From NCBI RefSeq assembly GCF_947495625.1, contig NZ_CANLZW010000035.1, positions 1-50,099 of the forward strand: 50,099 nt of DNA, in the 5' to 3' direction. Origin of the DNA: an uncultured Cocleimonas sp. (GTDB taxonomy: Bacteria > Pseudomonadota > Gammaproteobacteria > Thiotrichales > Thiotrichaceae). A model generated the notes under the pieces. That model was not told the DNA's origin. It was given only the letters and a program-made list of their open reading frames with translations, and searched no databases. This document shows, piece after piece, positions 2,835 to 50,099 of this stretch (position 1 is the first letter of the stretch; each line of letters begins with the position of its first letter). The position numbers and the translations under genes were made by a program.

Positions 2835-2975
2835 AAAAAGTGCCCAAAAGTAGGGGGGTGACTTAAGTCATTGTAATAACATCTATCCCAGTTTGATCAT
2901 TCTACATCGACGATTCCTTTCGGAATCTACGATGGACTTTTCAGTCTCTTGGTGAGCCTTGAAAAGCCACTTTTT
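2835..2975 (+). repeat. Short element with dispersed-repeat end and internal hairpin
   Basis: It begins with a canonical copy (2835-2862: A-run, TGCCC, AAAAGTAGGGGGGTGAC) and ends with GAAAAGCCACTTTTT (2962-2975), which matches the right end of the element at 4162-4425 with about 18 bases deleted. Bases 2863-2940 are homologous to 4190-4259. They include a hairpin at 2905-2934 (CATCG-ac-GATTCC, loop TTTC, GGAATC-ta-CGATG) whose stems are identical in the other copy while the loop differs. Confidence 0.6.
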
Positions 2976-3047: not shown

Positions 3048-3266
3048 ATGGTTAAAGAGATACTTTTAAAATCTACTATTACGTGCCCAGTCTGTGAGCA
3101 TAGAGAAACGGAAACTATGCCAACGGATGCATGCCAATGGTATTACGAGTGCACAGAATGTAAAACCCTGCTTAAGCCGTTAAAGGGTGACTGCTGTGTT
3201 TTTTGTTCTTATGGGACTGTTGCCTGCCCACCAATACAGGAAGGGACAAACTGCTGTTCAACATAA
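3048..3266 (+). CDS. GDCCVxC-type Cys-rich small protein
   Basis: This 72-residue protein carries the diagnostic GDCCVFCSYG motif (residues 47-56) followed by CPPIQ, which defines the family named GDCCVxC domain (seleno)protein. In some relatives a Cys is selenocysteine; here all are Cys. A zinc-ribbon-like pair of knuckles precedes it (C13-x2-C16 and C35-x2-C38), and the protein ends in NCCST. Ten cysteines in 72 residues suggest metal or thiol chemistry. The molecular function is not established. The start is ATG with TAAGGAG upstream. The stop codon overlaps the left edge of the second 144-bp repeat (3265-3408), and the first copy lies about 250 bases upstream, so direct repeats bracket the gene. 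Confidence 0.8.
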   Translation: MVKEILLKSTITCPVCEHRETETMPTDACQWYYECTECKTLLKPLKGDCCVFCSYGTVACPPIQEGTNCCST

Positions 3267-3408
3267 ACGCAGTAACTCACATACTTAGGTTAGATAAGCT
3301 TGCGCCATCTAACGCATGATGACAGGCACATAATCAAGTCCTCTACCACTGGTGGCAAATTCTCGAAACCCAGATGACGCTATCGCTTATCTAGGCTACA
3401 TTCTAGGC
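3265..3408 (+). repeat. 144-bp REP-like element, copy 2
   Basis: Direct repeat of 2652-2795 at about 92% identity by hand alignment. It starts at the stop codon of the GDCCVxC gene and ends about 30 bases before the DUF3147 gene. It has the same internal inverted motifs, GTTAGATAAGC and GCTTATCTAGGC. Confidence 0.7.
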
Positions 3409-3438
3409 CATTCATAGAATGAAAAAAGGAGGTGTTAA

Positions 3439-4161: not shown

Positions 4162-4425
4162 AAAAAACGCCCAAAAGTAGGGGGGTGACTTAGCAATCGT
4201 AATAACATCTATTCCAGCTTGAACATCGACGATTCCTTGTGGAATCTACGATGGACTTTAGTGAGCTTATCGTTTTGTTTTTTAAACGAATAACTCAGCC
4301 GAGTTTACGAGACAACAGCTTTGCTGACCCGATAGGGTGAGGCTTTAGCCGAATAATTATTTGACTTGTCATTCTTGGCTTTTGGTAAGCCTAATAAAGC
4401 CACCTCCCCACTTTAGGGCATTTTT
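4162..4425 (+). repeat. 264-bp non-autonomous element with dispersed-repeat ends
   Basis: The left end 4162-4189 is a canonical plus-orientation copy; the right end 4399-4425 (GCCACCTCCCCACTTTAGGG then CATTTTT) is its inverted counterpart. So both A/T runs face outward. The interior holds the hairpin 4224-4253 shared with 2905-2934, then a private stretch absent from the shorter element. It lies between grxC and the gene at 4476, where no coding sequence is seen. The layout matches a MITE, although target duplications are not obvious. Confidence 0.6.
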
Positions 4426-5518: not shown

Positions 5519-5548
5519 AAAAAAACCACCTAAAAGTAGGGGGGTGAC
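5519..5548 (+). repeat. Dispersed repeat copy between convergent genes
   Basis: A full-length plus-orientation copy (A-run, CCACC, TAAAAGTAGGGGGGTGAC) fills the gap between the membrane protein gene (ends 5486) and aapP (ends 5556). It has no good stem, so it is not a typical intrinsic terminator. Confidence 0.8.
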
Positions 5549-8746: not shown

Positions 8747-8803
8747 CCATTCAAAACCATCTGCGTAGGTACTTAGAGTAGTTACGCAGATGGTTTTGAA
8801 TGG
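8747..8803 (-). promoter_or_regulatory. 21-bp perfect hairpin between aapJ and aapQ
   Basis: Arms 8747-8767 and 8783-8803 are exact reverse complements with a 15-base loop. On the minus strand the hairpin follows the aapJ stop by six bases and no U-run comes after it. It probably protects the aapJ transcript 3' end, or partly stops transcription, so the binding protein is made in excess. Confidence 0.75.
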
Positions 8804-9832: not shown

Positions 9833-10368
9833 CTGATTTTCCTTTGTTTTTGCAAAAATTGCTTTCAGACCTAAGTAGCATTTAGCTAAATAGTGGTCTA
9901 AGACACTAATATACTAGTAAATAAATTTGATAAAGCAAATGAAGTACGATTAATAGTTAAAATACGCAAAACTAAATCAATGTTTACACTTGCGGCTCTC
10001 TACGACTGTTTGACTATTAGATAAGTGCTGGATAAAAATGCCTAGCTCTGCATAAATTCCAATGTCGTTTTTATAAAACAAAAACGAGTTGTTATTTAAG
10101 TAGGGGAGTGACGTTGTTTTCCAGATGCTGGCGTGGCCCATTCTGAAGATGTATTTATCGTTTATTTACTAAAAATAAAGAAAGCAAAAACTAATGCACA
10201 AATCCTATGCAATGGCATGCAAGAACCATGTAAACGAAGAAGCTTTTAAAATCCTTAGAAAAGTATTGGGCGAGTGATTGGAAATAACACGTTTGGGGGC
10301 TTAAGACTATAAAATCCACCCCCCTACTTATAAGGACTTTTTTGTTGTTATGTCATTTGAGTGGTCAT
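9833..10368. other. Intergenic with an inverted pair of dispersed repeats
   Basis: Upstream of aapJ and downstream of ppiC. The part 9833-10090 is AT-rich and should hold the aapJ promoter; I could not pick a convincing -35/-10 pair. The part 10091-10343 is a repeat-bounded element, described separately. No supported coding region. Confidence 0.5.
10091..10343. repeat. 253-bp segment with dispersed-repeat ends
   Basis: The left copy (10091-10112) is plus orientation with AAGTAGGGGAGTGAC; the right copy (10316-10343) is minus orientation, CCACCCCCCTACTTATAAGG then a T-run. The interior is unrelated to the other paired elements and has only short open frames. Its right end is about 25 bases from the ppiC stop. 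Confidence 0.5.
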
Positions 10369-13154: not shown

Positions 13155-13699
13155 GGTTTCCTCTCTGATTGATCGATTTAAGCTATTGATAAGCATGGTT
13201 TTAAGGTTATTGTTTACAGGCATAGTGTTTAAGGTCACCCCCCACCTTTTGGGCACTTTTTTAGAAATTGATTAGCTTAGAGAATAAGAATGATTTCTGT
13301 GTGGTAATCATAAACTATTCATATTCTGTAATGCTTTAATCTAATACTAAATTTACTGATTTATTTTATAAATATTGCTCTAAATATGAAATTTCCAGAC
13401 GGATTATTTTTGTGAATTCTCGGCTTGGAGCACATCAGAAAAAATAAAGTTGTCATTAACTCTAATTATTTTTATAAATATCAAATAGATAAGTATAACC
13501 TGCTTCTGAGTCTCTTGTTTTAAACTCCAAAATTCCTACTTTTTAACTATTTGTTTTTCTGTTGAGATAGAAAAACTAACCTTATCGGTTAGTATTTTTA
13601 ACGCATTTAGATGTATTAGTGTTTTATTCAAATCTGTACTATCGTTGACATAAGTTACACATTTTAAATGTTTTTTTGATAAGGAAAGGTGTTGTTGGG
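13155..13699. other. Intergenic region upstream of zwf
   Basis: AT-rich, without a supported gene; the short minus-strand frame at 13536-13721 has no recognisable features. It contains a dispersed repeat copy at 13234-13262. A TTGACA at 13645-13650 could be a -35 box for zwf, but no good -10 lies at the right distance. Confidence 0.5.
13234..13262 (-). repeat. Dispersed repeat copy after the rhodanese gene
   Basis: Near-consensus minus-orientation copy (GTCACCCCCCACCTTTTGGG, then CAC and a T-run), 80 bases after the rhodanese stop. No mate was found within the gap. Confidence 0.8.
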
Positions 13700-15252: not shown

Positions 15253-17094
15253 ATGAATACCCTTATCCAGAAAGTTACGAATAATATTATTGAACGCAGT
15301 AAGCCCTATCGAGAGGTTTATTTGGGACGCATCGCAGATGCAGACTCAAGAGGTGTTCATAGATCTGCATTAGGCTGTAGTAATCTGGCACATGGTTTTG
15401 CTGCCTGTTCAGCGGGTGATAAAGCATTGCTTTCTGAGGATGTAGTGCCAAATATTGCGATTGTGTCAGCGTATAACGATATGCTTTCAGCGCATCAGCC
15501 TTTTGAAGCATTTCCCAAGATTATTAAACAAGCATTACATGAAGCGGGTGCAACAGGGCAGTTTGCTGGCGGTGTTCCTGCGATGTGTGATGGTGTGACG
15601 CAATCACAACCGGGCATGGAACTCAGTTTATTTAGTCGTGATGTTATCGCACAGGCAACAGCCATTGCGCTGTCGCATAATATGTTCGATGGCGCATTAT
15701 ATTTAGGCGTGTGTGACAAAATTGTTCCTGGTCTAATGATTGGTGCTTTGACTTTTGGTCATTTGCCTGCGGTATTCGTTCCCGGTGGTCCAATGCCTTC
15801 AGGAATCAGTAATGAGGTTAAAGTAAAAGTTCGTCAAGACTTTGCTCAGGGTAAAGTGGACGAGAAAACATTATTACTCTCTGAATCTGGCTCATACCAT
15901 AGCCCCGGAACCTGTACTTTTTATGGTACTGCGAACAGTAATCAAATGTTGATGGAAATCATGGGACTGCATCTTCCCGGGTCATCATTTGTTGAGACTA
16001 ATACGCCTTTACGTACTGAACTGACTAAAGCTGCATCTACACAAGTATTATCCCTCATTGATACCGAATCAGGTTCAATGGGCATTGGTAAAATGCTGGA
16101 TGAGAAGAGTTTTGTGAATGCTGTTATTGGATTGCTGGCAACAGGTGGTTCGAGTAATCATACTTTGCATTTGATCGCTATGGCTCGTGCTGCGGGCATT
16201 GTGATTAACTGGCAGGATTTCCATGATCTTGCACAAGTCATTCCACTTCTTACCAAGCTTTATCCTAATGGCAGCGCAGACGTAAACCACTTCCACAGAG
16301 CGGGTGGCATGCCAGTAGTAATGAATGAATTACTAGAGAATGGCTTATTACATAATGAAGTGAAAACCATTATGGGTGAAGGGCTGAGTGCTTATACAAC
16401 CATGCCAAAATTAAAAGGCAAGGCGGGCACAGAAGAACTTAAGTGGAAAAAGAAAACGCTTAAAGACGAAAACAAAAACATCGTCAGCACAGTCGCAGAG
16501 CCCTTTAGCCATCACGGTGGATTAAGTATTCTACAGGGTAATATCGGTCGTAGTGTTATCAAAACCTCGGCATTAAAACCCGAGCACATGCTGATTGAAG
16601 CGCCGGCAGAGGTATTTGACTCGCAAGAGGCGTTACAAGACGCTTACCAAAATGGTGAGTTGAATAAAGACTTTGTTGCCGTTGTACGATACCAGGGCCC
16701 AAAGTCTAACGGTATGCCAGAATTGCATGGATTACTTCCTGCACTCGGTTCGTTACAGGATGAAGGATTTAAGATCGCGATTATTACTGATGGACGTATG
16801 TCAGGTGCATCGGGCAAGGTAGCATCTGCAATTCACATGACACCAGAAGCAAGCGAAGGTGGAGTGATTGCAGAAATAGAGCAAGGCGACATGATTCGAC
16901 TCGATGTTGAGAATTCCAGTGTGGAATTACTGGTTGATCCAACCGAATTAGCCAAAAGAAAAATAGTCGATCCGGATTTAAGTGGAAATCGCTTTGCCAT
17001 GGGGCGTGAATTGTTTGCCACATTGCGTGGTAACGTATCAGGTGCGGAAGAGGGTGCGTCTATCTTCAACTTGCCCGGCGAAGAGAGCGCTTAA
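15253..17094 (+). CDS. edd: Phosphogluconate dehydratase
   Basis: Converts 6-phosphogluconate to 2-keto-3-deoxy-6-phosphogluconate (KDPG), the first unique Entner-Doudoroff step. 613 residues, as expected for this IlvD/Edd iron-sulfur family. Cluster-ligand regions GVPAMCDGVTQ, LGVCDKIVPGLMIG and SPGTCTFYGTANSNQ each hold a conserved Cys. Other signatures are GGSSNHTLHL and the C-terminal DGRMSGASGKV. The leader is 74 bases after zwf, so it probably shares the transcript. Confidence 0.96.
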   Translation: MNTLIQKVTNNIIERSKPYREVYLGRIADADSRGVHRSALGCSNLAHGFAACSAGDKALLSEDVVPNIAIVSAYNDMLSAHQPFEAFPKIIKQALHEAGATGQFAGGVPAMCDGVTQSQPGMELSLFSRDVIAQATAIALSHNMFDGALYLGVCDKIVPGLMIGALTFGHLPAVFVPGGPMPSGISNEVKVKVRQDFAQGKVDEKTLLLSESGSYHSPGTCTFYGTANSNQMLMEIMGLHLPGSSFVETNTPLRTELTKAASTQVLSLIDTESGSMGIGKMLDEKSFVNAVIGLLATGGSSNHTLHLIAMARAAGIVINWQDFHDLAQVIPLLTKLYPNGSADVNHFHRAGGMPVVMNELLENGLLHNEVKTIMGEGLSAYTTMPKLKGKAGTEELKWKKKTLKDENKNIVSTVAEPFSHHGGLSILQGNIGRSVIKTSALKPEHMLIEAPAEVFDSQEALQDAYQNGELNKDFVAVVRYQGPKSNGMPELHGLLPALGSLQDEGFKIAIITDGRMSGASGKVASAIHMTPEASEGGVIAEIEQGDMIRLDVENSSVELLVDPTELAKRKIVDPDLSGNRFAMGRELFATLRGNVSGAEEGASIFNLPGEESA

Positions 17095-17206
17095 AAACGT
17101 AAATAGAATTTATGCAGAGCTAGGCACTTTTTAATCATATCCTCTAATCCTTTTACCTGTAGTTTAAAAATAGGTAAAAAATTAATATAGCGTAAGGTCA
17201 CACATT

Positions 17207-20388: not shown

Positions 20389-21843
20389 TTATTTAGTAAC
20401 GCTTTTTATCGCAGGGTATAGCTTTTTGTAAGTATTGTAGGCCTCATCGTATTGATCGATATATTCCTTATCAGGCTCAAAGCTTTGTTCAATCGCAGGG
20501 CTTGTTAAAACGCTTGAGATGGCTTGATCAGATGTGGCTAAAATTGCTAATCTGGCGGCACCAAAAGCCCCGCCAAAATCACCTTTGGCTGGAATATCTA
20601 TCGGTAAATTAAGGGCTGTTGCCAAAACCTTTAACCAGTAGTGAGATTTAGAACCGCCACCTACGGCAGTCAGTGAACGTAATTGAGTACCAGAAGCTTC
20701 CAGAGCCGCCATATTGTCTCGTATTGCAAAAACAACTCCTTCTAATACTGATTGAGTGAGTGTTTTTCGATCACTATTGCGACTCATACCAATAAATGCA
20801 CCACGAATAGATGAATCGTTATAGGGTGTTCTTTCACCCGCTAGATAAGGTAAGAAATAGACACCTGAAGGCGCTTTTAACTCATTACCTAGTTCTTTGC
20901 TAAGATCGTTGGCGGGTACTCCTGTTATCTCGCTATACCAATTTAAAGAGTCTGCTGCTGATAAGATCACGCCCATCTGATGCCAGGTATCTGGAATGGC
21001 ATGACAAAAAGCATGTACTGCGCTTTTAGGATTAGGTGAGTAAGATGAATTCGCCGCGAAAAGTACGCCAGACGTACCGAGTGAGACGAATGACTGTCCC
21101 TCTTTAATAATGCCCATGCCGCAAGCGGAAGTTGCATTATCTCCCGCACCACCTGCCACTAACGGTGGGTTAGACACCCCCCACCTTTTAGCCAGTTTTT
21201 CTCTTAATTGACCACTAACTTCTGAACCTTCGACCAGCCTAGGCATTTGATTCTGATTCAATTCACACGCATCTAAAAGCGTTGATGACCATTGACGCTT
21301 TTCGACATTCAGCCATGAAGTGCCAGAAGCATCAGACATATCACTCACATATTCTCCTGTTAGCCATAAACGCACATAATCTTTGGGCAGTAATACTTTG
21401 TGTATTCGGGAGAAGATTTCAGGTTCGTTATTTCTTACCCAGGAAACCTTTGGGGCCGTGAAACCAGGGAAAACAATATTGCCAGAAATCTTTTGGAAGT
21501 CTGGATTTGAGTCCATCTGTTCAGCTTCGAAGTTGCTACGTGTGTCATTCCAGAGCATGCAAGGGCGTAGTATTTTATCATGCTTGTCTAGTAACGTTGC
21601 GCCGTGCATCTGGCCTGAAAGTCCAATACCTAAAACCGCAGACATTTGTTTGGCATGGGATTGTTTGATGCTATCTAATGTTGCTTTAGTCGCCTCAATC
21701 CAGTCTTCGGGATTTTGTTCTGACCATCCAGTATGTGGACGAGATATTTTGATAGAGTGATGTGCCGTCGCAATGATATTTTGGCTTTCATCTATGAGCA
21801 GTGATTTCACTCCTGATGTGCCAATATCAATACCTATATACAT
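20389..21843 (-). CDS. xylB: Xylulokinase
   Basis: FGGY-family kinase that phosphorylates D-xylulose to D-xylulose 5-phosphate. 484 residues. The phosphate loop IGIDIGTSGVKSLLID is at the N-terminus, GLSGQMHGATLLD near residue 85, the catalytic-Asp region AGGAGDNATSACG near 235, and GGGSKSHYWLKVLA near 395. Last gene of the frcB-frcC-frcA-araC-xylB operon. Bases 21173-21200, coding for about AKRWGVSN, match the dispersed repeat closely and use the otherwise uncommon AGG and GGG codons. The first 150 bases of the gene are nearly identical to the truncated copy at 36617-36920. Confidence 0.94.
   Translation of the reverse strand: MYIGIDIGTSGVKSLLIDESQNIIATAHHSIKISRPHTGWSEQNPEDWIEATKATLDSIKQSHAKQMSAVLGIGLSGQMHGATLLDKHDKILRPCMLWNDTRSNFEAEQMDSNPDFQKISGNIVFPGFTAPKVSWVRNNEPEIFSRIHKVLLPKDYVRLWLTGEYVSDMSDASGTSWLNVEKRQWSSTLLDACELNQNQMPRLVEGSEVSGQLREKLAKRWGVSNPPLVAGGAGDNATSACGMGIIKEGQSFVSLGTSGVLFAANSSYSPNPKSAVHAFCHAIPDTWHQMGVILSAADSLNWYSEITGVPANDLSKELGNELKAPSGVYFLPYLAGERTPYNDSSIRGAFIGMSRNSDRKTLTQSVLEGVVFAIRDNMAALEASGTQLRSLTAVGGGSKSHYWLKVLATALNLPIDIPAKGDFGGAFGAARLAILATSDQAISSVLTSPAIEQSFEPDKEYIDQYDEAYNTYKKLYPAIKSVTK
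21173..21200 (-). repeat. Dispersed repeat copy inside xylB
   Basis: GACACCCCCCACCTTTTAGC followed by CAGTTTTT agrees with the repeat at about 25 of 28 positions. It is translated in frame as part of xylulokinase without lengthening the protein relative to the family. Confidence 0.6.
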
Positions 21844-21909: not shown

Positions 21910-22827
21910 TTACTGACTAAATCTAATTTTGCTTTGTTTTCTGTAGTCGCTTGGTGTCATGTTTTTTATTTCAATAAAGCGGCGATTAAAATTAGCCACA
22001 TTGTTGTATCCAACGTGATAGCAAATGGTACTGACGTATTGATCGGTTTCCATCAATAACTGGCAGGCTTTGTTTATTCGCAGTCTATTGACGAAATCAG
22101 TAAAGGTATTGCCAGAGGCTTTTCTGAAATAACGAGAAAATTGACTGCTATCCATCCCCGTTTTCTTTGCTATTTCTGCCATCGTAAACTGTGTAGAATA
22201 ATTCTCCGTAATATAATCGACAACTTTACTGATGCGATTCATCGAGGCAAAATTATCTAAACCCTGTAACTGATTGTTAGAAAGTAACTGATAATCTTTA
22301 TGTTCTGATAAGGCAGAAAATAGTTCTAAAAACGCATTGAAACGGGGAAGACCAGTTGACGTTTTAATCAGTTTAATTTTCTCTTCTGCAAAGTCACTTA
22401 TACCAAAAAACTCTATGCCATTTTTAGAACGATCTAGAAGGGGTAAAACCTGGCGTAATTCTGGCAGGTATTCACAACATCTACGAAATGGATCATCCAA
22501 AAACTGTAATCCAAGATCTCTACGTTTAACACCTTCCGGAGGAACATCTGTAGAAATCCAGTTGTGAGCTAGGCGTGGACCAGTTAGAACCAGATTGCCG
22601 GGTTTAAAGATGCCAATATAGTCTCCGACAAACATTTTGCCACTGGTTTCTAAAATTAAATGTAATTCATATTCTTCATGCTGGTGCCAACGAATTAGAG
22701 GGTTGGGTGCGCCATGTTCCACGCATCGCAGAAAACCATAAGAGCCTTCTGGTTCATAACCTAACGTTGAATTGCGTTGAAATGCTTGTTCAAGGATAGG
22801 TGTGTATTTAACGCTGTTGTTTTTCAT
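21910..22827 (-). CDS. AraC-family regulator of the frc/xylB operon
   Basis: 305 residues. The N-terminal half is a cupin-like effector domain (IRWHQHEEYELHLI, then GDYIGIFKPGNLVLTGP). The C-terminal 100 residues carry two helix-turn-helix motifs: MAEIAKKTGMDSSQFSRYF and a second one around VSTICYHVGYNNVANFNRRF. It sits between frcA (48 bases) and xylB (66 bases), so it likely responds to the imported sugar or a phosphorylated product. A paralog lies at 36987-37904; their DNA-binding halves are almost identical while sensor halves differ. Activation of both loci through one binding site is an inference. Confidence 0.9.
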   Translation of the reverse strand: MKNNSVKYTPILEQAFQRNSTLGYEPEGSYGFLRCVEHGAPNPLIRWHQHEEYELHLILETSGKMFVGDYIGIFKPGNLVLTGPRLAHNWISTDVPPEGVKRRDLGLQFLDDPFRRCCEYLPELRQVLPLLDRSKNGIEFFGISDFAEEKIKLIKTSTGLPRFNAFLELFSALSEHKDYQLLSNNQLQGLDNFASMNRISKVVDYITENYSTQFTMAEIAKKTGMDSSQFSRYFRKASGNTFTDFVNRLRINKACQLLMETDQYVSTICYHVGYNNVANFNRRFIEIKNMTPSDYRKQSKIRFSQ

Positions 22828-35160: not shown

Positions 35161-35468
35161 GTCAATTCATAATATTAAAATTAACTTAATAAATTTCAGA
35201 CGTTCGACTTTTCGGACGTGGTAATGTTCAATCGTATTTTTTGCTTTATGAATATCAGAAATAGATAAAAAACAGTCAAAAAGTAGGGAGGTGTCATTTT
35301 AATCATATTGTTGTATAAATATTGATTAAATCAGGACATTTACCACGTCAGATCTATTCAAGTCACTCCATAATTATTGATTAAATTCAGTGTAAGTTTC
35401 TTGCATAATCTAACGAGAAACCTAGACTTTTTTGAATAATTTCGAAATATAATAATTGAGAACTTGAA
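35161..35468. other. Intergenic with a dispersed repeat
   Basis: AT-rich gap between amylosucrase and D-lyxose isomerase genes. It contains the repeat copy at 35267-35295. A ten-base inverted pair, GACGTGGTAA (about 35216) and TTACCACGTC (about 35340), flanks that copy at a distance of about 110 bases. No coding sequence is supported. Confidence 0.45.
35267..35295 (+). repeat. Dispersed repeat copy upstream of lyxose isomerase
   Basis: Plus-orientation copy (A-run, CAGTCAAAAAGTAGGGAGG, TGTC). The next copy, opposite orientation, is at 38031-38058, on the far side of the decayed pentose locus. Confidence 0.7.
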
Positions 35469-36159: not shown

Positions 36160-36613
36160 TTAAAATCGAAATAGATTTACCTTTTTAATGATCACTCTAT
36201 AAGTGACTAAATCTGCTTCCACTGAATGCTCAACAATAAATTCCGCATTGTGAATATCATTAGACAAAGCTAGTTGCTTTGCACCCTCCAAGTCATAACC
36301 ATAATCTAGCCAGCGGTCGATTAATGTTGTTTTGACTGTGTCAATATCAGGTTTGAGGAATATCTTTAAGTCGTAAATCTTATTTAGTTTTGACCAAGAT
36401 TCTAATTTCAACAGTAGGTAATTTCTCTCAACAATCAGGATACGACGATCTGCAGGAATCGTTTTGGCGTCTGGAATAGTTTCGTCGCTTTGCTGATTGA
36501 GCGAAGGGATGTTGATTAATTTATTCGCACAGCTTTAAGATTTGATCAGCTTCACAAAGCCTTGGCTGTCAAAGGTACTTTCTGCAACTTTTCGGTGTAG
36601 CAGCTGAAGTTTT
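36160..36613 (-). pseudogene. FrcK-like sugar kinase, broken C-terminal part
   Basis: The minus-strand frame reads ESTFDSQGFVKLIKS, stop, then SCANKLINIPSLN, TIPADRRILIVERNYLLL, the DLKIFLKPDIDTVKTTLI segment and WLDYGYDLEGAKQLALSNDI. These are the successive landmarks of the P-loop kinase family of FrcK and YggC-type proteins (for comparison, VIVEGNYLLL and RWLDHGL in homologs). A TAA at 36535-36537 interrupts the frame, and the N-terminal P-loop half is missing. At about 36613-36617 it abuts a truncated xylulokinase, so a deletion fused the two relics. In Sinorhizobium frcK adjoins frcBCA, which suggests this locus derives from a second frc/xylB copy. Confidence 0.75.
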
Positions 36614-36616
36614 CAA

Positions 36617-36920
36617 GGGTGTCATTTCAGAGCATGCATGGGCGCACAATCTCATCGTCTTTGTCTAGTAGTGTTGCTCCGTGCATTTGACCTGATAGCC
36701 CGATGCCTATAACTGCAGACATTTGTCTGGCATGGGATTGTTTGATGCTATCTAACGTTGCTTTAGTAGCCTCAATCCAGTCTTCGGGATTTTGTTCTGA
36801 CCATCCAGTATGTGGACGAGATATTTTGATAGAGTGATGTGCCGTCGCAATGATATTTTGGCTTTCATCTATGAGCAGTGATTTCACTCCCGATGTGCCA
36901 ATATCAATACCTATATACAT
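36617..36920 (-). pseudogene. Truncated xylulokinase copy (xylB')
   Basis: Encodes the first 97 residues of xylulokinase, from MYIGIDIGTSGVKSL to RPCML, then a TGA (36627-36629) replaces the TGG that codes for Trp in the intact gene. Three further codons (NDT) match before homology ends at the kinase relic. The first 150 bases are over 99% identical to intact xylB; the remainder is clearly more diverged. No function expected, although the start region and RBS are preserved. Confidence 0.88.
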
Positions 36921-36986: not shown

Positions 36987-37904
36987 TTACTGACTAAATC
37001 TGATTTTGCTTTGTTTTCTGTAGTCGCTTGGTGTCATGTTTTTTATTTCAATAAAGCGGCGATTAAAATTAGCCACATTGTTGTATCCAACGTGATAGCA
37101 AATGGTACTGACGTATTGATCGGTTTCCATCAATAACTGGCAGGCTTTGTTTATTCGCAGTCTATTGACGAAACCAGTAAAGGTATTGCCAGAGGCTTTT
37201 CTGAAATAGCGAGAAAATTGACTACTATCCATTCCAGTTTCTTTGGCAATATCTGCCATAGAAAACTGGCTTGAGTAATTTTGCGTGATGTAATCTACAA
37301 CATCACTGATACGCTTCATAGATGCGTCATTATCAAAGCTTTGAATCTGAGTGTTAGACAGTAATTGATAATCTGTAGTCTCAGATAAAGTTAAGATTAA
37401 CTCCAGAAATGCATTGAAGCGTCTTATTCCTGTTGAGTTTTTGATTTGACTTAACTGCTGTTCGGCATAGTCACTGATACCAAAAAACTCAATACCATTT
37501 TTGGCTCTGTCTAAAAGAGGGATTGCCTGTTTTAGTTCCGGTAGGTACTCACAAGATTTACGAAACGGTTCGCCTAAAAACTGTAAAACAAAATCTCTTC
37601 TGGCAACGCCTTCTTCCGGGATATCTGTTGAAATCCAGTTATGAGGTAAGCGCGGTCCAGTAAGCACTAAATTGCCTGGTTTGAAGGAGCCAATATAGTC
37701 TCCAACAAACATTTTCCCACTGGTATCGGTAATTAAATGCAATTCATATTCTTCATGATGATGCCATCGAATCAGGTCATTAGGCGCGCCATGTTCCAGA
37801 CATCGAAGGTAGCCATAGGAACCTGTTGGTTCATAACCTTGCGTCGCATTTCGCTGAAAGTCCTGTTCAAGTGTTGGTGTATATTTAGAAGAATTATTTC
37901 TCAT
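36987..37904 (-). CDS. AraC-family regulator, second copy
   Basis: 305 residues from the ATG at 37904, aligned with the paralog at 21910-22827 over the full length. The N-terminal cupin domain (IRWHHHEEYELHLI, GDYIGSFKPGNLVLTGP) is diverged, while from TGMDSSQFSRYF to the C-terminus the two proteins differ at one residue. It should therefore bind the same DNA sites with possibly different effector response. The upstream TTG at 37916 is rejected because the paralog starts at the equivalent of 37904 and GGA is well spaced. It is intact although the xylB downstream is truncated. Confidence 0.9.
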   Translation of the reverse strand: MRNNSSKYTPTLEQDFQRNATQGYEPTGSYGYLRCLEHGAPNDLIRWHHHEEYELHLITDTSGKMFVGDYIGSFKPGNLVLTGPRLPHNWISTDIPEEGVARRDFVLQFLGEPFRKSCEYLPELKQAIPLLDRAKNGIEFFGISDYAEQQLSQIKNSTGIRRFNAFLELILTLSETTDYQLLSNTQIQSFDNDASMKRISDVVDYITQNYSSQFSMADIAKETGMDSSQFSRYFRKASGNTFTGFVNRLRINKACQLLMETDQYVSTICYHVGYNNVANFNRRFIEIKNMTPSDYRKQSKIRFSQ

Positions 37905-38030
37905 TTTCAATTCCAAAGTTAAGTTCTTAAGTCGTTGGTATTAATTTACATCCCCAGTTAAGTACAAAAACCTGATAAAAATATTTACAATAAAAATCTA
38001 TTAAACATTATTTAGATTATAGCATTTTTA

Positions 38031-38058
38031 GTCACCCCCCACCTTTTAGGGGGTTTCT
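38031..38058 (-). repeat. Dispersed repeat copy between dalD and araC
   Basis: Minus-orientation copy GTCACCCCCCACCTTTTAGG, then GGGTTTCT with a shortened T-run, in the gap 37905-38154 downstream of dalD and upstream of the second araC. Confidence 0.75.
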
Positions 38059-44282: not shown

Positions 44283-44312
44283 GTCACCCCCCTACTTTTA
44301 ATGGGTTTTTTT
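44283..44312 (-). repeat. Dispersed repeat copy
   Basis: Minus-orientation copy GTCACCCCCCTACTTTTAAT, then GGG and a seven-T run. It lies between the ndh hairpin and the smoE promoter region. Confidence 0.8.
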
Positions 44313-45839: not shown

Positions 45840-45867
45840 GACACCCCCGTACTTTGAGCGTTTTTTT
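45840..45867 (-). repeat. Dispersed repeat copy between ndh and smoS
   Basis: Minus-orientation variant GACACCCCCGTACTTTGAGC, then a T-run, in the 210-base gap between the sorbitol dehydrogenase gene and ndh. Confidence 0.7.
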
Positions 45868-49759: not shown

Positions 49760-50099
49760 TTTTGTTACCTCAATTTTTTAGATAAATAAGTATTTGTTTG
49801 TCATCAGTTAAAACGCTTAATAAATAAAATTAGACGCACGCTGTGAAAAAAGCAGGAGATGTAATAAAAATGGGGAGTGAGAATCAAGCTCACTTATATC
49901 TATGACTGTGAGCTTTAATAAGCTAAAAAAAGTTAAAAAAGAGCGAGACGTTTACTATTAATGATTAGTTTTATTTAAAAAGAGAAACTGAGGAAGAAGC
50001 TAATAAAAAGTGCCTTAAAGTAGGGGGGTGACCTCACTACTGTCCCACAGTTTACCATTAGAAAGCGAACTTCATCTGAGGCTCGCTTTTCTTATGTCT
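49760..50099. other. Intergenic at the window end
   Basis: Contains a hairpin AAGCTCAC/GTGAGCTT (49886-49915), a canonical dispersed repeat copy (50005-50032), and a stem AAAGCGA/TCGCTTT (50062-50089) followed by T residues that could be a terminator. No gene seen. Confidence 0.5.
50005..50032 (+). repeat. Dispersed repeat copy at the window end
   Basis: Canonical plus-orientation copy: A-run, TGCC, TTAAAGTAGGGGGGTGAC. Confidence 0.85.

Follow-up and report, generated by a model that had tools for sequence, protein, structure and literature searches.

How did a xylulokinase gene of an uncultured Cocleimonas sp. come to carry, in frame, 28 bases that recur between genes elsewhere in its genome? 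The gene, xylB, lies in a stretch of 50,099 nucleotides that is here called the window. The initial annotation proposed that a dispersed repeat had been domesticated within an essential region of the enzyme. Our analysis leads to another reading. The xylB stretch is a single, in-place copy of a genus-specific DNA motif that occurs genome-wide, and with about even confidence we take this motif to be a DNA uptake sequence. XylB itself is not special in this respect, being one among many motif-bearing genes that include queA and ybeY.

The motif copy in xylB

The xylB product is a full-length xylulokinase, scoring 588.8 bits against a TIGR01312 cut-off of 380.25, and the motif copy within it (Table 1) codes EKLAKRWGVS, with both terminal codons partial, and adjoins the AGGAGDNA region. 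The closest sampled copy, at C3:32222 of the same genome (G000), agrees at 26 of 28 positions and the closest in the window at 24 of 28, so that an earlier estimate of about 25 was fair. The protein, as was also claimed, is not lengthened by the repeat. Most relatives compared align to the site without a gap, and so do two xylulokinases of solved structure, 5vm1 and 2itm; in 2itm a one-residue gap falls just downstream, in AGGAGD. The codons AGG and GGG had been called unusual for the gene, which is partly right, AGG making up 2 of 17 arginine codons and GGG 2 of 39 glycine codons.

Table 1. Coordinates in the window of xylB, its motif copy and the further copies of the motif.
Feature	Position	Strand	Basis or remark
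xylB, xylulokinase, 484 aa, intact	20389..21843	-	ORF list; TIGR01312 E 7e-177
28-base motif copy, in frame within xylB, from Glu215 (partial) to Ser224 (partial), AAAAACTGGCTAAAAGGTGGGGGGTGTC	21173..21200	-	26/28 to best sampled copy; ortholog alignments
17-base core in xylB, AAAAGGTGGGGGGTGTC	21173..21189	-	14 exact places in genome, counting xylB
Upstream half of xylB motif, A-tract + CTGGCT, scored 12-mer	21190..21201	-	PSSM score 13.2; 0/12,260 random coding 12-mers as high
Intergenic motif copy	2835..2862	+	Window scan
Intergenic motif copy	4162..4189	+	Window scan
Intergenic motif copy	5521..5548	+	Window scan
Intergenic motif copy, weaker	10317..10343	-	Window scan
Intergenic motif copy, closest in the window to the xylB copy (24/28)	13234..13261	-	
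Intergenic motif copy	35268..35295	+	Window scan
Intergenic motif copy	38031..38058	-	Window scan
Intergenic motif copy, without counterpart in the orthologous G003 interval	44283..44310	-	
Intergenic motif copy, same place in G003	45840..45867	-	
Intergenic motif copy	50005..50032	+	Window scan

The nucleotide-level comparison with orthologs that had been proposed as a check covered 105 xylB relatives, 92 of them ungapped at the site. The 82 of these that are at least 45% identical form the counted set, 13 being left out as gapped or unaligned at the site and 10 as below 45% identity. None of the 82 comes within three mismatches of the motif core, and none has AGG at the motif arginine, where the relatives have CGN. 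The three best relatives, of Thiothrix type, stand at four mismatches, and two of them are the same contig in duplicate; the motif is also absent from the xylB of G017, the nearest ortholog by protein (74%). Among the sequences examined the bases thus occur only where the repeat family exists, and no repeat-free genome among them carries the same bases. The residues encoded at the site are ordinary for the family, with tryptophan in 75 and glycine in 77 of the 82 relatives, and the position of the motif valine is occupied by Met in 51, Ile in 13, Leu in 10, Val in 6 and Phe in 2.

In the nearest repeat-bearing relative, G003, the locus is syntenic and 88 bp stand in place of xylB, between pgi and araC-type genes. 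Elsewhere in the window a truncated second copy of the 5' part of xylB, which spans residues 1-107 and contains a stop, adjoins a second araC-type regulator, with 36606-36905 and 36987-37916 corresponding to 21529-21828 and 21910-22827. The arrangement is a duplicated araC-xylB module of which one half has decayed. In G003 a remnant persists at the second xylB place, and the first has no xylB.

Abundance, anatomy and placement of the motif

The degenerate 17-base core has 1054 near-copies at up to two mismatches in the 4.6-Mb genome, compared with 4 for a reversed control, and about ten copies besides that in xylB lie in the window. In 189 intergenic copies the motif starts with five A's and two variable bases, continues with YGCCY and AAAGTAGGGGGGTGWC, and ends in a tail rich in T and A, the consensus being roughly AAAAA-N2-YGCCY-N-AAAGTAGGGGGGTGWC-TTT. 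Convergent gaps between genes hold the motif in 41 of 70 cases, tandem gaps in 105 of 322 and divergent gaps in 23 of 85. Orientation is independent of gene direction, with 58 copies in tandem gaps running with the genes and 53 against them. Spacing is more even than random (CV 0.83; gaps below 500 bp 2.6% against 11.7% expected, copies within 100 bp being merged). Copies mostly stand singly and are not palindromic. Inverted pairs less than 100 bp apart number 10 among 232 copies in G000 and 8 among 112 in G003, and the 10 pairs of the G000 sample lie back to back, 39-57 bp from start to start, with A/T tracts inside. A sample of G010 has 8 of 16 copies in close inverted pairs, for example at G010:C58:19495-19561, against 10 of 164 in G000 with the same pattern, and among the G010 pairs listed the copies are often 53-54 bp apart. 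Viral contigs gave 0 exact matches to the full motif.

Positions of the motif are mostly kept between two species. Across eight syntenic stretches compared between G000 and G003, both flanks served to place 18 copies of G000 that have no more than one mismatch, four of them genic, and 17 of the 18 have a counterpart in the same G003 interval, a share that is likely an upper estimate since well-aligned stretches were used. The exception is the window copy at 44283; among the 17 kept G003 copies, one has an extra G and another two mismatches. Nine more G000 copies with at most one mismatch, that in xylB among them, are unplaced in G003. A looser tally, which includes weak hits and one poly-C run three times, gives 20 positions in both genomes, 5 in the own genome only and 8 unmatched in G003.

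The window holds other repeated sequence as well. A 40-nt inverted pair, 88% complementary, lies at 10034-10073 and 17092-17131, and a similar stretch (GCATAAATTCTATTTACGTTTT) adjoins a motif copy near G000 C1 43983, possibly as a further dispersed element that in places lies next to motif copies. The region before 4476 contains a 150-nt direct repeat, 91% identical (2652-2801 and 3265-3414), with further repeated stretches nearby at 2870-2940 and 4196-4259, and at 8747-8803 there is a hairpin whose arms, each of 27 nt and 93% complementary, enclose a loop of 3 nt.

Of all genomes searched, only those of a single Thiotrichaceae genus have the motif family in abundance. At up to one mismatch the core occurs 721 times in G000, 694 in G004, 661 in G011, 362 in G008, 277 in G003 and 265 in G007, all of one genus, and 0-3 times in each of the rest of 63 family genomes. 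A sample of 369 genomes of the class, with G000 as sole member of the genus, gave 631 hits in G000 and one each in five others. When NN is allowed in the core, G010 is rich too (148 hits, variant AAAGAGGGGGGGTGGC), and counts reach at most 16 in genus members other than the seven motif-rich ones and at most 5 outside the genus. The species sampled write the core in dialects: GTAGGGGGGTGAC in G000, this word with A/G ahead of its final C in G003, GTGTAC in G007, GTGTC in G004 and G011, and AAAGAGGGGGGGTGGC in G010. Dialect words head the list of over-represented 10-mers in six samples, and a sample of G001 has no comparable word.

Copies in other genes

The survey of copies within genes covered 822 kb of the genome, made up of the window, the whole of C5, the greater part of C1 and of C2, and a portion of C3. 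Here 26 of 238 hits at up to three mismatches (11%) fall inside predicted ORFs, 18 sense and 8 antisense; gene calls were greedy longest ORFs, which makes these counts approximate, and about 6 in-gene hits would be expected by chance at this threshold. One of the 26, in an ORF that we take from its family to be Mg-chelatase-like, looks like plain protein conservation. Eight genes were chosen from the 26 for being recognisable and studied in detail. The motif site is ungapped against relatives in five: xylB, queA, nnrD, an enoyl-CoA hydratase gene and an isochorismatase-like gene. In queA, the clearest case, it is ungapped in all 30 loci, the own included, and the codons AAA GTA GGG GGG TGT have a near match in G003 (AAA GTG GGG GGG TGC) and differ in the remaining 28. 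The other three genes encode YbeY, PolB and SurE. The YbeY and PolB copies sit in variable loops that exceed those of the H. influenzae and E. coli proteins by up to 9 and 10 residues, and may therefore have been inserted there; the SurE copy is at the C-terminus. Between G000 and G003, the YbeY motif codons are kept except one and the preceding codons have diverged.

In five of the eight genes, those in which it can be judged, the motif thus arose by base substitution, without insertion or deletion. Insertion of a mobile repeat is ruled out for xylB and the four others by these ungapped alignments. For xylB, the ortholog comparison shows that the suggestion of replaced coding bases is right in kind, whether the cause was conversion or mutation coupled with selection or drive; to single out xylB or its active site was wrong.

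Some resemblance of xylB to the motif comes free, since the protein dictates TGG GG in the core and AKRWG is near the family norm, and the Thiothrix-type genes come to four mismatches. That a conserved AKRWG and codon choice should spell the repeat by accident is nonetheless very improbable. With the peptide AKRWGVSN fixed and codons drawn at genome usage (20,000 draws), the degenerate core is matched exactly with P 0.00055 and at up to one mismatch with P 0.012. The upstream half with its A-tract, which is not forced by the core, outscores all 12,260 random coding 12-mers. Across 616 predicted genes of at least 150 aa (668 kb), compared with 200 protein-preserving codon permutations, sense copies at up to one mismatch number 8 against a shuffled mean of 0.03 (maximum 1), and at up to two mismatches 14 against 0.47 (maximum 3). 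The antisense figures are 2 against 0.02 and 3 against 0.17 (maximum 3), which gives 17 copies on both strands at up to two mismatches where about 0.6 are expected. The excess is weaker at up to three mismatches, with 19 sense copies against 4.4 and 7 antisense against 1.7 (antisense maximum 7). Chance and codon constraint are ruled out by the protein-preserving shuffles together with the upstream-half score, and for the motif family as a whole chance is refuted.

Strand orientation

Orientation of the motif follows GC skew (Spearman 0.75 in 20-kb bins) more closely than gene strand (0.29). Where skew reaches 0.03 or more, the G-rich strand is favoured, with 88 copies following it and 21 opposed in G000 and 30 to 6 in G003; G004, G007, G008, G010 and G011 lean the same way, not significantly and in small samples. 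The lean appears to go beyond what intergenic composition predicts in C2, C3 and C5 but not in C1, and polarity in G000 C1 is weak although skew there is mostly negative. Along G003 C1, among the copies listed, minus and plus copies number 38 and 5 at 0-0.5 Mb, 34 and 24 at 0.5-1.0 Mb, and 17 and 34 beyond 1.0 Mb, where the one stretch sampled has positive skew and the ten earlier ones negative. The word GGGNAGGG, which we take to be the KOPS word of E. coli, is polar in C2 (0:7) and C5 (6:1) and sparse elsewhere (C1 3:1, C3 1:0, window 0:2). Strand polarity, which in a motif of the KOPS/AIMS kind would run from origin to terminus, is seen in G000 C2, C3 and C5 and is weak in G000 C1 and in mid G003 C1.

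A candidate DNA uptake sequence

Of the readings weighed, we rank first, with a probability of about one half, that the motif is a DNA uptake sequence. We liken it to such sequences because of its in-place origin, its dialects, its core with AT-tracts, its intergenic preference and the presence of some inverted pairs. Known uptake sequences prefer non-coding DNA with about 10% in inverted repeats (PMC1939737), have a core with AT-tracts (PMC7811141) and occur in dialects (PMC3630211); PMC2346458 and PMC12616744 were also drawn on for these marks. The motif shares with them a copy number far above chance and an origin in place, reading frames included. Inverted pairs are a minority of copies in G000 and G003, and in the G010 sample, at one half, they are not. 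Under such a mechanism, cells would preferentially take up DNA that bears the motif, recombination of the incoming DNA would favour motif-matching alleles, and copies would accumulate at sites that tolerate them, for the most part in intergenic gaps and occasionally in codons. The copy in xylB would be an example, with an arginine codon AGG where relatives have CGN and a valine where they mostly have Met, Ile or Leu.

Several observations argue against this reading. The share of hits within ORFs is below the 65% of uptake-sequence copies in genes given for H. influenzae and the 35% for N. gonorrhoeae in PMC1939737. According to PMC1939737 and PMC2346458, known uptake sequences show no orientation bias, whereas the motif leans to the G-rich strand. 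In the YbeY and PolB loops insertion is conceivable. The competence protein family ComEC (PF03772) is not diagnostic, being matched in 11 of 12 genomes of the genus, motif-poor ones included, and also in E. coli; it has no match in G004, which is motif-rich and 89% complete.

Second in rank, and unlikely in our estimate, is a polar chromosome-organising motif whose strand would be read by a replication- or segregation-linked protein, as FtsK reads KOPS. The correlation with GC skew and the lean in G000 and G003 favour it, as does the shift of orientation along G003 C1 to where skew turns positive. The lean is not significant in the five other motif-rich genomes, however, and is weak in G000 C1. 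The motif has dialects within one genus and motif-poor sister species, and it is far longer than the 8 bp given for KOPS and AIMS in PMC2680272 and PMC5993296. Moreover, the KOPS word is itself polar here in C2 and C5, and mutation bias can drift a G-rich motif to the G-rich strand. A binding site for a nucleoid or repair protein that is not strand-read is distinctly less probable; the layout of A-tract and core, the even spacing and the kept positions would suit one, but the change of dialect and the restriction to a genus seem to us unusual for such sites.

A mobile or REP-like repeat, with a GTAG head and a RAYT transposase, that was inserted and captured in xylB has a small probability. 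The motif has the tetranucleotide GTAG, the head of REP elements, and this, the inverted pairs and the intergenic preference, together with matches to the Y1 transposase family in two motif-rich genomes (four in G000, two in G010), are in its favour. Five of the seven motif-rich genomes (G003, G004, G007, G008 and G011, some of them incomplete) have no such match, though, the copies in five of the eight genes examined are ungapped, positions are mostly kept between species, and most copies are single and not palindromic. The distribution of PF01797 thus disfavours a REP/RAYT origin, even with the matches in G000 and G010. Slightly less probable still is a role as a transcription terminator or RNA element. 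Convergent gaps are enriched and inverted pairs could form hairpins; against this, copies lie within open genes, the window has no Rfam match at gathering scores, and a role at the transcript level is disfavoured because orientation does not follow genes. With REP-like and transcript roles disfavoured, a signal at the level of DNA remains. Domestication of the repeat for the benefit of XylB, as originally put forward, is very improbable. The place beside AGGAGDNA speaks for it, but the residues at the site are typical of xylulokinases, copies occur in many unrelated genes, and no observation points to a service of the motif to XylB.

This Thiotrichaceae genus may represent a third independent lineage of uptake sequences, a reading to which we give somewhat less than an even chance, with dialects, a 28-bp bipartite motif and, unlike those known, a strand polarity that would tie the tags to replication direction. 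In the literature examined, uptake of DNA by sequence tags is on record from just two families, the Pasteurellaceae and the Neisseriaceae. In the literature searched, with most subscription journals outside its range, no title or abstract opening dealt with the motif or with uptake sequences in Thiotrichaceae. An independent origin with dialects would open comparative tests of how tags arise, by molecular drive or by selection for self-recognition. Copies within genes such as xylB and queA would reveal the extent to which codons and residues yield to the process, and thanks to the strand lean the old question whether uptake tags are linked to replication could again be put to the test.

Comparison with known systems

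The motif resembles the USS of Pasteurellaceae in its hundreds to more than 1000 copies, its G-containing core with AT-tracts, its intergenic preference, its occasional inverted pairs and its copies inside codons. It differs from them in sequence and bacterial family, in its lean to the G-rich strand and in its smaller genic share. With the DUS of Neisseriaceae it shares species dialects round a common core, over-represented 10-mers and some genic copies, and it is unlike them in family and sequence, in its greater length and in being bipartite. Its strand orientation follows a replication-linked skew as that of the polar octamers KOPS and AIMS does; whereas those have 8 bp, the motif has about 28, is abundant in one genus only and has dialects. 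REP elements with their RAYT transposases are intergenic, of high copy number, marked by the tetranucleotide GTAG and found in inverted pairs, all of which the motif recalls. It is set apart from them by the absence of a Y1 transposase match in most motif-rich genomes, by copies that mostly stand singly and by copies within genes that lie in place without insertion in the majority of those examined.
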